Positions 3,043-30,895 of a stretch of DNA of 41,280 nt are shown here, piece by piece. Source of the stretch: Gemmatimonadota bacterium (GTDB taxonomy: Bacteria; Gemmatimonadota; Gemmatimonadetes; Gemmatimonadales; Gemmatimonadaceae); assembly GCA_003223455.1 (NCBI GenBank), contig QHVE01000069.1:1-41280 (forward strand). The letters are read 5' to 3'. Made by a program: the position numbers and the translations under genes. How positions within the stretch are numbered: position 1 is the stretch's first letter; every line of letters starts with the position of its first letter. The notes beneath the pieces were generated by a model. That model was not told the origin of the DNA, did not search any database, and saw nothing but the letters and a program-made list of their open reading frames with translations.

Positions 3043-3495
3043 ATGACGCTCGCCGAGGACACCACCGGCCACGCACCGCACGTCACACTTCCCTGCCCTG
3101 CATGCGGCCGCTGGAACCGCATCGCTGCGCGGCGCATGACCGATGGTCCGAAGTGCGGCATCTGTGCCGCGCCGCTCAACCTCGCGCATCCGGTCGCGCT
3201 CACGGACGCGACGTTCGATCGCGTGATCCACGAGACGTCGCTGCCGATCCTCGTCGACTTCTACGCCGACTGGTGCGGGCCGTGTCGCATGATGGCCCCC
3301 GCCGTCGACGAGCTCGCGCGCACCTCGGCTGGCCACACCCTCGTCGCGAAGCTCGACACCGACGCGTCGCAGAAGGTCGCCTCGCGCTACCAGATCAGAG
3401 GCATCCCGACGGTGATCGTGTTCAGGAACGGACGCGAAGAGCGCCGCCAGAGCGGCGTGATGCCGCTGGCGGCGCTGAGGGAGATGGTGCGCTGA
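3043..3495 (+). CDS. trxC: thioredoxin 2 (zinc-finger thioredoxin)
   Basis: A 150-residue thiol:disulfide reductase. Residues 18-41 hold two CxxC pairs (C18/C21, C38/C41), the N-terminal zinc finger that marks the TrxC type. The thioredoxin fold follows with the active site WCGPC (77-81) and the cis-proline loop GIPT. It lacks a signal peptide, so it is cytoplasmic. ATG 3043 is preceded by GGAG at a suitable distance. It is transcribed away from tRNA-Ala and ends against a bidirectional terminator shared with the convergent act operon. Expected role: reduction of protein disulfides under oxidative stress by thioredoxin reductase, which is not in this window. Confidence 0.95.
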   Translation: MTLAEDTTGHAPHVTLPCPACGRWNRIAARRMTDGPKCGICAAPLNLAHPVALTDATFDRVIHETSLPILVDFYADWCGPCRMMAPAVDELARTSAGHTLVAKLDTDASQKVASRYQIRGIPTVIVFRNGREERRQSGVMPLAALREMVR

Positions 3496-3522: not shown

Positions 3523-3570
3523 ACGGTTTAACGGTTTAACGGTTTAACGGTTTAACGGTTTAACGGTTTA
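3523..3570. repeat. six tandem copies of the octamer ACGGTTTA
   Basis: Six perfect head-to-tail copies of ACGGTTTA directly abut the left arm of the terminator hairpin, 28 bases after the trxC stop. There are no spacers, so this is not CRISPR-like. Part of the composite intergenic structure 3523-3636. Confidence 0.95.
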
Positions 3571-3610
3571 CGGCCGGCCTCGGGAAGCTCCTGCGTCCCG
3601 AGGCCGGCCG
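3571..3610. terminator. bidirectional terminator hairpin between trxC and actF
   Basis: A perfect 15-bp GC-rich stem (CGGCCGGCCTCGGGA and its complement) with a 10-base loop lies between two convergent genes. On the plus strand it is followed by TCTTAGCGTTTTAG and on the minus strand by TAAACCG, so both sides offer short T-containing tracts. Confidence 0.85.
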
Positions 3611-3612
3611 TC

Positions 3613-3636
3613 TTAGCGTTTTAGCGTTTTAGCGTC
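3613..3636. repeat. three tandem copies of the octamer TTAGCGTT
   Basis: Two perfect copies and one copy with a final C follow the hairpin directly. The period is again 8 bp. In direct orientation, phased as AGCGTTTT, it matches the left-hand octamer (AACGGTTT) at 6 of 8 bases. Confidence 0.9.
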
Positions 3637-3653: not shown

Positions 3654-4979
3654 TTACTCGTGCGCCGGCAGCGGCTCCATCGTCTCGGGATTCACCGGCA
3701 CTTGCACTTCGTCGCGATAGGGCGACGTCATGAGCACGGCCCGCACGCGCGGGAACGCGTTGGCGAAGGCGAGGTAGCAGGTCGCCCAGAGGCCGACATA
3801 GCCGACCGTGACGCCGATCTCCCAGAGACCGAACGGCAGCCCGGGCGCCACGCCGTAGAGCGACGGATAGACCTCGAGATAGCGCACCAGCCACATGCCG
3901 ATGAGGCTGATCGTCGTGAACAGCGCGAGAGTCGGATGGAAGACCTTCGCCGCACGCGACAGCAGCCCGAAGAAGGGCACGAAGAACACGCAGATCACGG
4001 CCGTCACGCTGAACTGCACCCACGGCGCGATCAGACGCAGTCGCGGCCAGTGCGTCTCCTCTCCCATGTTGCCGTACCAGATCACCAGGTACTGGCCGAA
4101 GGTGAGGTAGCCCCAGAAGGCGGTGAACGCGAAGCAGAGCTTTCCGAGGTCGTGGAAGTGGTTCTCGCCGATGATCGCCTCGGCGCCGAGGTATCGGCGC
4201 CACGCCAGCACGAGCAACGTGAACAGCGTGAGCGAGCAGAGCCACGCGCCCATGAAGAACCACCAGCCGTAGAGCGTGCTCTGGAAGTGCAGCGACAGCC
4301 CCATCGACAGGTCGAACGCGAGGATCGACCACCCGTAGCCGAAGCACAGCGCGAGGAACACGGCGAGCTTTCCCTGCAACGAGTGCGTGCTGTGCAGCTC
4401 GCGCCGCTCCTCGCCGAAGCCGGCACGCATCCGCGCACGCAGTCCCGCGGCCCACTTGGAGCCCCACTCCGGTAGCAATCCCACATCCAGCCGCACGGAC
4501 GTGTAGATGTACCAGAGGGAGAGAATCGTGATCACGCCGAATGCGATGAACACGCGGGCCGTGAGGAAGGCGGGGTTGAAGTACAGCACTTTCTCGGCGA
4601 CTGGGGGCCGCTCGTGCGTCCACGGGAAGACGTACCCCTTGCCGAGGAAGAGGGTGATCAACAGCAGCACGAAGGCGACGGGGAGGAACGCGACGTAGCC
4701 CTCGAGCAACCGCACGATCGGACGCGACCACCTCGCCGTCGTGATCCGCTGAACGGCGACGAACATCACGCCGGCCGACGAGAGCGACGTGAAGAAGAGC
4801 CAGTTCGCGTGATGCGCGCGCCACACGCGATCGGGAGCGACGAACAGCCCGATGATGAACACGAGCGTGCCGATCACCGCAAGCACCGCGGCGAGGGTGC
4901 CGAGTGACTTGGGAAGCGGTCTGCTGTAGGTCGCGACCAGATCCTCGCGAGTAGGAACGTGCGCGGCGTGGAGGCTCAT
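3654..4979 (-). CDS. actF: alternative complex III membrane subunit ActF
   Basis: A 441-residue polytopic inner-membrane protein of the NrfD/ActC-ActF family, last gene of the act operon. Around ten hydrophobic helices can be followed, starting at LGTLAAVLAVIGTLVFIIGLF and ending near the C-terminus. Acidic and histidine residues inside helices (for example ENHFHDLGKLCFAF) resemble the family's proton-path residues. In known complexes ActF packs against ActC and is thought to help energy conversion; the quinol site is assigned to ActC. ATG 4979 overlaps the actE stop as ATGA, so translation is coupled. It ends at the octamer-flanked terminator. No cytochrome oxidase genes follow, unlike in many act clusters. 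Confidence 0.93.
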   Translation of the reverse strand: MSLHAAHVPTREDLVATYSRPLPKSLGTLAAVLAVIGTLVFIIGLFVAPDRVWRAHHANWLFFTSLSSAGVMFVAVQRITTARWSRPIVRLLEGYVAFLPVAFVLLLITLFLGKGYVFPWTHERPPVAEKVLYFNPAFLTARVFIAFGVITILSLWYIYTSVRLDVGLLPEWGSKWAAGLRARMRAGFGEERRELHSTHSLQGKLAVFLALCFGYGWSILAFDLSMGLSLHFQSTLYGWWFFMGAWLCSLTLFTLLVLAWRRYLGAEAIIGENHFHDLGKLCFAFTAFWGYLTFGQYLVIWYGNMGEETHWPRLRLIAPWVQFSVTAVICVFFVPFFGLLSRAAKVFHPTLALFTTISLIGMWLVRYLEVYPSLYGVAPGLPFGLWEIGVTVGYVGLWATCYLAFANAFPRVRAVLMTSPYRDEVQVPVNPETMEPLPAHE

Positions 4980-28092: not shown

Positions 28093-28695
28093 ATGGCGCA
28101 CACCCTACCACCGCTCCCATACCCCACGAACGCGCTCGAGCCGCACATCGATGCGCAGACGATGGAGATCCATCACGGGAAGCACCACAACGCGTACGTC
28201 ACGAACCTCAACGCGGCGCTGGAAAAGGCGCCCGAGCTGGCCGACAAGTCGCTCGAGGATCTGCTGCGCAATCTGAACAGCGTGCCCGAAGCGGTGCGCA
28301 CGGCGGTGCGAAACAACGGCGGCGGACACTGGAATCATTCCCAGTTCTGGACGACGATGAGCCCGAACGGCGGCGGTGGGCCGACGGGTAAGCTGGCCGA
28401 TGCAATCACGAAGTCGTTCGGCGACGTCGAGAAGTTCAAGGAGGCCTTCAACGCGGCCGGCGTCTCACGCTTCGGCTCGGGCTGGGTATGGCTGGTGAAC
28501 GAAGGCGGCAAGCTCGCGATCACCAGCACGCCGAACCAGGACAACCCGCTCATGGACGGCAAGGCGCCTCCCATCCTCGGCAACGACGTGTGGGAGCACG
28601 CGTACTACCTCAAGTACCAGAACCGTCGCCCGGACTATTTGAAGGCGTGGTGGAATACGGTGGATTGGGAGGAGGTAGGGAGACGGTTCCAGTAG
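28093..28695 (+). CDS. sodA: superoxide dismutase (Mn/Fe type)
   Basis: A 200-residue cytoplasmic enzyme that converts superoxide to hydrogen peroxide and oxygen. Metal ligands are in [12 protein letters not shown] (first His), [10 protein letters not shown] (second), and [11 protein letters not shown] (Asp and last His). GGHWNH and GSGWVWLV favour the manganese type, but metal cannot be settled by eye. GGAG precedes ATG 28093 at seven bases. It is complete and follows dedA closely. The palindromic octamer-flanked terminator begins right after the stop. Confidence 0.96.
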
Positions 28696-28697
28696 GC

Positions 28698-28748
28698 TGT
28701 GAGTTGGTGAGTTGGCTGGTTGTGAGTTGGTCGGTTGATTGGTGCGTT
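28698..28748. repeat. degenerate tandem octamers, consensus GGTGAGTT (left array)
   Basis: Units TGTGAGTT, GGTGAGTT, GGCTGGTT, GTGAGTT (one base short), GGTCGGTT and, after a GATT interruption, GGTGCGTT follow the sodA stop. The same octamer occurs in inverted orientation on the far side of the central hairpin. Confidence 0.85.
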
Positions 28749-28749
28749 G

Positions 28750-28820
28750 AACGGCCCTGGTCACAACCGGCGTGGAAGCCCCGCTGAGGGGTCTCCACGC
28801 TGGTCCGTAGCCAGGGCCGT
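28750..28820. terminator. nested hairpin between sodA and the LVIVD gene
   Basis: Outer arms ACGGCCCTGG (28750-28759) and CCAGGGCCGT (28811-28820) pair perfectly. Inside, GCGTGGA-AG-CCCC and GGGG-TC-TCCACGC form a second stem with a two-base mismatch and a GCTGA loop. It separates two convergent genes and should stop both transcripts; TTTCGTT follows on the plus strand. Confidence 0.8.
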
Positions 28821-28842
28821 TTCGTTCACTCGATCACCGACT

Positions 28843-28882
28843 AGCTCACCAACTCACCAACTCACCAACCAACCAACTCACC
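28843..28882. repeat. tandem octamers AACTCACC (right array, inverse of GGTGAGTT)
   Basis: Five units in perfect register: AGCTCACC, AACTCACC, AACTCACC, AACCAACC, AACTCACC. They are the reverse complement of the left array, so the whole 28698-28882 segment can fold as one large imperfect palindrome. The array ends three bases before the stop codon of the LVIVD gene. Confidence 0.92.
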
Positions 28883-28885
28883 CTC

Positions 28886-30895
28886 TCAAGGCACGGTCCC
28901 GGATTTGGGCTCGATCCTCACCGCCCACAGCCCGCTGTTGAAATCGTTCACGTAGGCGAGGCCGTCCTTCTTGTTCACGACCACGCCCCACGTCATCGGC
29001 GCGTTGGGGATGATGCCCTTCGGATCGGCGGGCATCACCTCGCCGATCAGGCGTCCCTGTGCCTCGAGGTCACCGCGCACGTCGCCGCTGATGTCGAACG
29101 CCTTGAAGCCGGCGTTGTATGCGCCGAGATAGAGCGTATCGCCGGCGACCCAGACGTTGTGCACGCCGCCGAACTCCGGCTCGTACCAGGCGACCGGCTT
29201 CAGATGCTCCAGGTCGCGCGCGTCGAGTATCTGCAGTCGTCCGTGGGCCCGTGAGAAGTTTCCGGCGTACAGCTGCTCGGCGGCCGTATTCCCGAACACC
29301 TCGTCGGCGATGATGATGTAGTCCTTGTGTCGCCACGCCGTGTGCGTGCCGCGGATGAACCCCTTGCCGCCCTCGGCCTCGACGTCCTTGTACAGCGCGT
29401 CGAGGTCGTACTTGTACTGGGTCACGAACTGCGGGTTCGACGGCGTGCCGCCCTTGATGCCGTTGCCGACGTCGAGGACCACGAGCCCGTCGTTCCACCA
29501 CGAGCCGTAGAGCAGCCCGTCCTGCACGTCGATGTCGTGCAGAAAGCGGCCGGCGTCGGCGCGCGGCGTCTTCCACGTCGCCACCTGCTTCGGATGGGCC
29601 GGATCGTTGATGTCGATCACGTGCACCGCGCCGGTTCCGTCGTTCGTGAGGTAGATGTGCGTGCCGTACTTCGGCTGCGAGTGGATGAATGCCGAGTGCA
29701 CGCCCGCCGTGACCCCCTCCGTGAACTCGCTCAGGGCCTTGGGATGCAGCGGGTCGTGCGTGTCGGCGATCACGATCCCGTTCTTGCGGTCGGCGGCACC
29801 CTCGCGGGTGATCACGAGCGTGTTCCCGTCCGGCGACGTCATGATGTCGTTCACGGATCGCGCGTTCACGATGATCGAGTCGACGATCGTCGGGTTCGCC
29901 GGATTGGAGATGTCCACGGCGTACACGCGGTCGCCGCCGAGGATCGTGGCGAGGTAGGCGACATTGCCGTTCGGGTGGATCCAGACCTCGCTCGTATGGA
30001 ACGCGCTCCGCACGAGCTTTCCGACGATCCTCGCCTGGCGTTTGATGTCGCGATCGACCGCCGTGACGATCGCGTCCCCTGTGCGTGTGCCGAAGCTCGC
30101 CGTCACCTGGTAGGTGCCCGGCCGATAGGCGACGAAGGCGCCCTCCTCGTCGACCAGTCCGTTGCCAGGCGTGAACAGCCAGCTGGGCGTGAGTCCGGCG
30201 ATCTCGCGGCCCTGCGCGTCGCGCGCGATCGCCCGCAGGTGAATGACGTCACCCGTGCGCGCCTGGACCGTGGCTGGCCGCACCTCCACGCTCGCGATCG
30301 GGCTGGCGACGACGTTCACCGTCCATCGCTCGACCGCGGCGCCGGCCGACGCCGAGATCGAGGCGCGACCCGGCGCGACGGCCTGCAGCAATCCGTCGTT
30401 CGAGACGCGCGCGACTGCCGGATTGTCGCTGGACCATTGCACGCGGTCGTTGCGCCGGTCGTCCGCCTTCGAGTACACGGTGCCGGTCAGATGCACGCGC
30501 TGACCGATGGCGAGTCGCGTTGGCCGCGGAGCCACCGCGACGCGCGCCGCAGGACCCGCGACCATCGCGACCTCGAACCGCTCGACGACCGGCTTCGCAC
30601 CGGGCACGATCGCGATGGCCGTGATCGGCATCGTACCCACCGAGCCCGCCGAGAGCTTGCCCGTGGAGTCGACGGCCCCTTCGTAGTGGCTGCCGGCGTT
30701 CCGGAACACGATGCGCGCGTCCGGCACCGGATTCCCGGACTCGTCCAACAGCTTCGCGCTGAAGCGCAGGGTGTCACCGACTACGACCGTCCGCGTCGAC
30801 GGCGTCACCATCAGTCGCTGCCTGGTTTGCGCTGATGCCGTTCCTCCGACCATCGCGCAGAGTGCCAGCCCCGCCGCGATCTCCCTCCGACTCAT
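28886..30895 (-). CDS. secreted Ig-like plus LVIVD beta-propeller protein
   Basis: A 669-residue exported protein. A signal peptide (AGLALCAMVGGTASA) is followed by about three bacterial Ig-like repeats (VTPSTRTVVVGDTLRFSAKL; VAPRPTRLAIGQRVHLTGTV; VEVRPATVQARTGDVIHLRA) and then LVIVD-type propeller blades (DRVYAVDISNPANPTIVDS, GIVIADTHDPLHPKALSEF, AVHVIDINDPAHPKQVATW, GRLQILDARDLEHLKPVAW). Such proteins are thought to be surface or periplasmic binding proteins; no enzymatic residues are evident. ATG 30895 overlaps the speA stop as ATGA, an odd partnership between a secreted protein and a cytoplasmic decarboxylase. Confidence 0.85.
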   Translation of the reverse strand: MSRREIAAGLALCAMVGGTASAQTRQRLMVTPSTRTVVVGDTLRFSAKLLDESGNPVPDARIVFRNAGSHYEGAVDSTGKLSAGSVGTMPITAIAIVPGAKPVVERFEVAMVAGPAARVAVAPRPTRLAIGQRVHLTGTVYSKADDRRNDRVQWSSDNPAVARVSNDGLLQAVAPGRASISASAGAAVERWTVNVVASPIASVEVRPATVQARTGDVIHLRAIARDAQGREIAGLTPSWLFTPGNGLVDEEGAFVAYRPGTYQVTASFGTRTGDAIVTAVDRDIKRQARIVGKLVRSAFHTSEVWIHPNGNVAYLATILGGDRVYAVDISNPANPTIVDSIIVNARSVNDIMTSPDGNTLVITREGAADRKNGIVIADTHDPLHPKALSEFTEGVTAGVHSAFIHSQPKYGTHIYLTNDGTGAVHVIDINDPAHPKQVATWKTPRADAGRFLHDIDVQDGLLYGSWWNDGLVVLDVGNGIKGGTPSNPQFVTQYKYDLDALYKDVEAEGGKGFIRGTHTAWRHKDYIIIADEVFGNTAAEQLYAGNFSRAHGRLQILDARDLEHLKPVAWYEPEFGGVHNVWVAGDTLYLGAYNAGFKAFDISGDVRGDLEAQGRLIGEVMPADPKGIIPNAPMTWGVVVNKKDGLAYVNDFNSGLWAVRIEPKSGTVP

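Follow-up and report, generated by a model that had tools for sequence, protein, structure and literature searches.

The DNA analysed here (the window, 41,280 nt) comes from the 4.96-Mb Gemmatimonadota genome of a soil bacterium. In it, sodA and a gene for an LVIVD-repeat protein converge on a gap of 190 bp from stop codon to stop codon (28696-28885), which is wholly occupied by a near-complete palindrome with the following features.

28093-28695, + strand: sodA, Fe/Mn superoxide dismutase (Pfam PF02777/PF00081), convergent onto the element
28696-28885, no strand: whole sodA/LVIVD gap, one copy of family B by blast and alignment to 14 other copies
28698-28750, + strand: left arm of degenerate GTGAGTTG octamers, G/T-rich and C-poor on the + strand, with one 1-base slip
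28751-28820, no strand: nested hairpin core of family B (outer stem 28751-28760/28811-28820, inner stem 28770-28776/28794-28800), -55.5 kcal/mol for the core alone
28821-28882, - strand: right arm of inverted octamers, its last part (28843-28882) being five AACTCACC-type units in strict 8-bp register
28886-30811, - strand: LVIVD-repeat/Big_2 protein gene (Pfam PF08309, PF02368), convergent onto the element

The RNA fold of 28690-28890 has an energy of -125.1 kcal/mol, compared with -69.5 ± 4.5 kcal/mol in dinucleotide shuffles (z = -12.3), and includes 50 arm-to-arm pairs beyond those of the core. The palindrome of octamers around a nested hairpin that the original prediction placed in this gap is therefore real and far above chance. 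The five AACTCACC units predicted in strict register do keep that register, but only three of them are exact (28851, 28859 and 28875), the other two being the variants AGCTCACC and AACCAACC. An 8-bp period had been claimed for both sides, but that of the left arm is not strict: apart from a single exact GGTGAGTT (28706), this arm is degenerate and its register slips by one base. A terminator scan passed only an inner sub-hairpin, and the T-rich stretch following the outer stem, which ends at 28820, is short and interrupted (TTCGTT). Scanning the window against Rfam 15 gave no match to the element above the gathering score, the sole hit being a tRNA at 2916-2988.

A similar site had been predicted at 3523-3636, and an element of this kind was found there, composed as follows.

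3136-3495, + strand: thioredoxin gene (trx), upstream of the second element
3523-3570, + strand: left arm, ACGGTTTA x6, period 8
3570-3611, no strand: hairpin core of family A2 (ACGGCCGGCCTCGGGA...TCCCGAGGCCGGCCGT), 42 nt, -41.1 kcal/mol
3609-3635, - strand: right arm, CGTTTTAG x3.4, period 8
3654-4979, - strand: convergent gene beyond the element, no Pfam match

The two arms of this second element pair only poorly with each other.

Both elements are members of larger families. The sequence AACTCACCAACTCACC occurs at 49 exact places in the 4.96-Mb genome, compared with none for the reversed control, and several of these places form -/+ pairs about 150 bp apart. Family B, represented at sodA, is a dispersed and sharply bounded palindromic repeat of about 177 bp, present in both orientations in copies that are 75-94% identical; about 40 full copies were counted from 84 matches, since a palindrome matches on both strands. 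Nearly every copy covers query positions 31-206 in blast, and 15 copies align end to end with a mean column identity of 78%. Family A is a hairpin of 36-42 nt (ACGGCCTCGGGA...TCCCGAGGCCGT) whose arms vary in length, unit and period (7- or 8-mers). It has 22 copies, the one at 3523-3635 in the window among them, in the 807 kb (16%) of the genome from which our own-genome statistics were drawn, a sample made up mostly of contigs with at least one AACTCACC array and in which genes were called with a simple codon-model script of our own.

In this sample, 20 of 22 family A cores and 16 of 20 family B copies lie at a gene 3′ end, and two further B copies at fragment ends stand behind a gene 3′ end with the right neighbour not called. 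Gaps between convergent genes, which make up 72 of the 439 intergenic regions, hold 13 of the 22 family A and 11 of the 20 family B members, and the ends of B often include the stop codons of both flanking genes. A stable GC-rich hairpin is present between the convergent gene ends at sodA and in the sampled elements. The positions thus cluster at gene 3′ ends rather than being random, and the elements form the non-random class, enriched between convergent genes, that the original prediction had envisaged. Array length varies between copies, also as foreseen, one array having 10 tandem octamers at C66:37275 of the same genome; most of the sequences come from metagenome assemblies, which contain runs of N and may show long arrays in collapsed form. 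Growth by slippage at the site, as earlier proposed, is not supported at sodA, where the array was mostly inherited with the 177-bp repeat. As the only origin, de novo growth on site was rejected for family B, since its copies can be aligned over their full length.

The self-match of convergent gaps peaks at lags 4, 8, 12, 16, 20 and 24 (0.32-0.34 versus about 0.275 in shuffled sequence), so the 8-bp unit of convergent intergenic DNA in this genome has a 4-bp sub-period; a weak self-match is also seen at lags 7 and 15. Divergent and co-directional gaps gave almost no period signal. Intergenic arrays of this genome have a period of 7 or 8 in 37 of 47 cases, and arrays within genes mostly one of 6, 9 or 12. 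In the genome G014, a gemmatimonad of another genus, 22 of 24 intergenic arrays have period 7, and the lag-7 self-match of convergent gaps reaches 0.456 (0.277 when shuffled). In the same survey, G012, G018 and G025 showed essentially no period signal. The period, far from varying freely, is therefore locked near 8 and not strictly 8. Neither of the two outcomes that the original prediction had named as refuting a defined class, random positions and a freely varying period, was observed. The earlier expectation of a unit that varies while the period stays at 8 was right about the variation of the unit and the narrow range of the period and wrong about the exact value; a strict period of 8 was rejected, period 7 being equally common in places.

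The arrays have a clear polarity. Of 45 arrays, 40 have the nearer gene 5′ to their G-rich strand (sign test, P = 4e-8), at a median distance of 5 nt compared with 110 nt on the other side, and 32 of 33 sense arrays start between -21 and +27 nt from the stop codon. Arrays in divergent regions are few, with the same polarity in six of seven; as no transcript enters such regions from the end of a gene, these arrays count against the terminator reading given below. At G014:C12:72134-72206, between co-directional genes 73 bp apart, a GAGAGTT array stands behind the stop codon and a CGAGTCA array before the next start.

Orthologous-gene loci from relatives were compared at the sodA, trx, phytoene-synthase-like and ompA junctions. 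At the sodA junction the unit is GTGAGTTG in the host genome, ACGGTGAG in G003, CGTGAAC in G008 and GACAGGAA in G005, and in further relatives GCGGTTG (G002), AGTGGGG (G011) and AGGCATC (G014); at the trx and ompA junctions, too, the units all differ between relatives. Congeners at the four junctions either keep the layout with other words or have an empty gap. In a test on 18 hand-read units in which phylogeny was ignored (our permutation tests take no account of relatedness among genomes), unit similarity at a shared junction was 0.14, no higher than random (1459 of 1500 permutations as high), and within one genome 0.28, above random (35 of 1500 as high). The core is exchanged as well. Two orthologous junctions carry family B in the host genome and core A in Gemmatimonadetes SH_69_11, a relative with several-kb blocks of up to 84-85% DNA identity, and a third core, AAGGGCACACCGG...CCGGTGTGCCCTT, is found in G003, G005 and G008. 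The trx junction of G007 keeps the A2 core with altered arms. Four congeners have a gap of only about 20 bp without a hairpin at the phytoene-synthase-like junction, so the element is dispensable. At orthologous junctions, the arrangement is kept and the wording is not.

Several other arrangements were seen in these relatives. A third terminator-like core, AAGGGCACACCGGA..TCCGGTGTGCCCTT, occurs with differing arms at several junctions of G008, G005 and G003 (L163, L164, L194, L313, L314), and the preferred core appears to differ from one species to the next. In the 3′ flank of sodA, G009 (L167) has tandem units of about 20 bp (GCAGCTTGAAACCACTGTAC) in place of 7/8-mers, and G002 (L165) carries two tandem copies of the hairpin half GACCTCGGGACGCTTCTACCGCC, each with a single arm, which looks like the outcome of a duplication or half-deletion of an element. 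A period-9 inverted element, ACCACAGAGGACACAGAGG...CCTCTGTGTCCTCTGTGGT, found at convergent or co-directional gene ends (the ompA junction of G002, L315; G004:C9:73295-73483 and 147063-147606), looks like a further member of the same layout class.

The two arms of convergent elements tend to match each other. In 20 convergent elements outside family B, compared on core-trimmed arms, the match between own partners was 10.9 versus 6.2 between swapped ones (0 of 10,000 permutations); a swap test by simple halves that included B (419 of 5000 permutations) was discarded as confounded by the shared B unit. In a set of 91 (GGTGAGTT)3+ arrays drawn from many phyla, 34 had a complementary partner on the downstream side of the G-rich strand and one had it on the upstream side. 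Such a partner was found for 12 of 18 convergent arrays compared with five of 16 co-directional ones, and for this reason stem extension is not the whole story. Unlike units can also stand on the two sides of a convergent element, namely GTGGTGA and GTGACTCA at C70:95434 of the host genome and, in the presumably convergent element L029 of SH_69_11, GGTGAGTT and GCATCCCC. The scarcity of co-directional partners, together with these unlike pairs, leads us to regard one array per gene end as what seems to be the basic unit, with mirroring added between convergent genes. Of 46 consensus pairs in family B, one alone had changed on both sides and several were broken; covariation in family B was accordingly rejected as proof of an RNA stem, and selection on pairing is left unsupported.

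The 3′-end position, period, polarity, arm matching, turnover of units at orthologous junctions and dispersal of family B are established features of these elements; that they terminate transcription, grow by slippage and are overwritten within the genome is our inference. Taking them together, we lean slightly towards a composite bidirectional 3′-end module, a putative terminator, in which slippage lengthens the arms and other words of the genome replace theirs. Judging from its position and stability, the GC-rich hairpin would terminate transcription of both converging genes, with or without the help of a factor, and the mirrored arms of 7/8-mers may lengthen the stem, separate the stop codons and form a G-rich-then-C-rich border zone. 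Replication slippage would create the arms and alter their length, and repeat words currently common in the genome would overwrite them through copying or template switching between similar sites; such copying within the genome is suggested because the arms match and the units are genome-specific. Overwriting of this kind could explain why words are replaced fast while position, a period of 7-8 and convergent self-complementarity persist. The copy at sodA is a member of family B, whose palindrome of about 177 bp was dispersed as a whole. Against the terminator reading, the U-tracts after the cores are short. Rho loading by the C-rich arm is disfavoured, the arm being sequestered by pairing and that at 3609-3635 containing few YC steps.

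The main rival holds that hairpins and transcription ends provoke polymerase slippage and strand switching and so leave mirrored 7-8-bp repeats that are tolerated in gene-end gaps, the arms requiring no function. This remains a strong competitor because compensatory changes are few (1/46 family B pairs) and the empty junctions in congeners show that arrays are freely gained and lost; units are unrelated between species, and a polymerase-footprint cause for 7-mers has already been put forward (PMC4692102). A neutral by-product would not, however, be expected to hold so tightly to the stop codon and to the G-rich polarity (median 5 nt; 40/45), nor to give convergent partners with matched units when divergent gaps, equally non-coding, are almost without a period signal, and the hairpin cores are themselves conserved. 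We consider it possible, though on the unlikely side.

It is improbable, in our view, that the elements are small non-autonomous mobile elements of the ERIC, REP or MITE kind, in which a transposase would have spread B, and perhaps A, with the octamers as its ends. The sharp ends of B, its 75-94% identity over about 177 bp, its roughly 40 copies in both orientations and its absence from an orthologous junction in congeners are all in keeping with mobility. Target-site duplications, however, were looked for at the ends of B and none was found, these ends fall at both stop codons and not at random distances, and the family A elements with their unrelated arms, as well as the turnover of units, would be left unexplained. 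The genome has a single Y1/REP-associated transposase, with unrelated repeats around it; since it is not flanked by A or B, mobilisation by a RAYT/REP system was rejected. On either side of the Y1 gene (L281, G000:C32) stand inverted GGGGTCAGACTCCTTGAAAA repeats, which form a REP-like family with no relation to A or B. REP/BIME elements, 20-40-bp hairpins repeated at gene 3′ ends in alternate orientations and associated with RAYT transposases, resemble the family A core, but the only Y1 transposase here has other repeats on its flanks. The ERIC or IRU elements of enterobacteria, imperfect palindromes of about 130 bp dispersed between genes, resemble family B in being dispersed palindromes; B, however, spans stop codon to stop codon without target duplication, and we know of no tandem octamers in ERIC or IRU.

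Still less probable is an array for a protein (IHF/HU-like, gyrase or CsrA/S1-like, on DNA or RNA) that reads the 7-8-nt spacing and not the letters. Keeping the period while the letters change would suit such a protein, and IHF/HU has been proposed for paired 8-mers in Geobacter (PMC2700814), but different units of a single genome have no motif in common (GGCATCA, GAGAGTT, GGGTCGA) and a period of 7 is out of step with the DNA helix (10.5 bp). That the arrays act as G-quadruplexes or as three-frame stop codons just behind the gene is very improbable: the G-rich strand does come after the stop codon and GGGAATC arrays form quadruplexes in vitro (PMC4692102), yet a GG run is missing from many of the units (GAGAGTT, GTGACTCA, AGAGTGC), and about half of them lack a stop codon whichever frame is read (GGCATCA, GACAGGAA, GGGAATC), so that both are largely refuted as a general function.

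The original prediction also stated that no family with this layout had been described, which is too strong, as pairs of inverted 7- or 8-mer arrays are known in Xanthomonas (PMC4692102) and in Geobacter metallireducens (PMC2700814). Arrays of the heptamer GGGNATC occur in Xanthomonas and Nostoc (Rehm et al., 2015, PMC4692102); in Xanthomonas, GGGAATC arrays stand behind stop codons with the polarity seen here and form 70-75 inverted pairs per genome (PMC4692102). Inverted pairs in close proximity are thus shared with the present elements. The Rehm-type arrays, however, have a single unit per clade that is kept between two Xanthomonas species, and they lack 8-mers and a reported hairpin core (PMC4692102), whereas here several units per genome are replaced at orthologous junctions and a conserved hairpin lies inside. 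Their 7-nt unit with a GGG tract is not that of the window elements, where the units are the 8-mers GTGAGTTG and ACGGTTTA, although GGGAATC itself occurs in the relative G014. In Geobacter metallireducens, paired tandem octa- or heptanucleotides are described as ‘global regulator binding sites’ of classes 1-4 (PMC2700814). They resemble the present elements in being tandem 8- or 7-mer pairs on opposite strands at variable distance, in having several unit classes per genome and in being missing from a sister species; they are annotated as IHF/HU sites from sequence alone, and the text consulted connects them neither with gene 3′ ends nor with a hairpin core (PMC2700814). The TAACTGA arrays of Beggiatoaceae (MacGregor, 2015, PMC4679880) stand just upstream of start codons, have one fixed unit and are almost never inverted; these repeats (PMC4679880) and the cyanobacterial STRRs share with ours that intergenic 7-mer arrays are scattered over unrelated phyla. 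In the open-licence literature we found no paper on the octamer arrays themselves, nor any account of hairpin cores inside such pairs, of unit replacement at orthologous junctions or of a genome-specific choice between 7 and 8. Close relatives of these elements are already published, and the turnover of the unit is the new part.

Non-coding repeats of bacteria are usually classed by sequence, and here the sequence changes while the geometry stays; sequence-based repeat finders and RNA families therefore miss the class, as the empty Rfam result illustrates. If the arms matter for termination, they would make a type of terminator built from self-renewing repeats, and if they do not, they would preserve a clean trace, made in nature, of how slippage and strand switching work over 7-8 bp. 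Either outcome bears on the over-representation of 7-mers in bacteria, a question open since the 2007 survey cited in PMC4692102.

The arrays are not confined to the phylum. Searching with (AACTCACC)x3 matched at least 112 contigs, from Gemmatimonadota, Acidobacteria, Bacteroidota, Desulfobacterales, Chloroflexi, Planctomycetota and others. Two 200-kb stretches, not picked for arrays and from genomes found via the octamer, were surveyed: Acidobacteria SZAS-18 had 23 intergenic arrays, 14 of them with period 7, and the isolate Prevotella conceptionensis (G036 C4:1-200000) had 29, very densely placed, 25 of them with period 8; both stretches contain many different units. The density of the pattern in an isolate genome makes a metagenome artefact an unlikely source. 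The G-rich polarity is weaker in these two stretches (11/19 in SZAS-18 and 17/23 in P. conceptionensis) and is thus not universal. It is possible, though less likely than not, that the arrays represent a multi-phylum class at gene ends defined by its layout alone, namely 7/8-bp tandem arrays that are mirrored between convergent genes and have a period characteristic of the genome (8 in the host genome and P. conceptionensis, 7 in G014 and SZAS-18). In such a class, the word would be replaced faster than the neighbouring genes diverge and homogenised within the genome, and selection or a genome-specific replication or repair machine would act on spacing and symmetry and not on the letters. The units of the P. 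conceptionensis arrays include AACTCCTT, AAGGTAGT, AGTTGACA and TTTCACCT.
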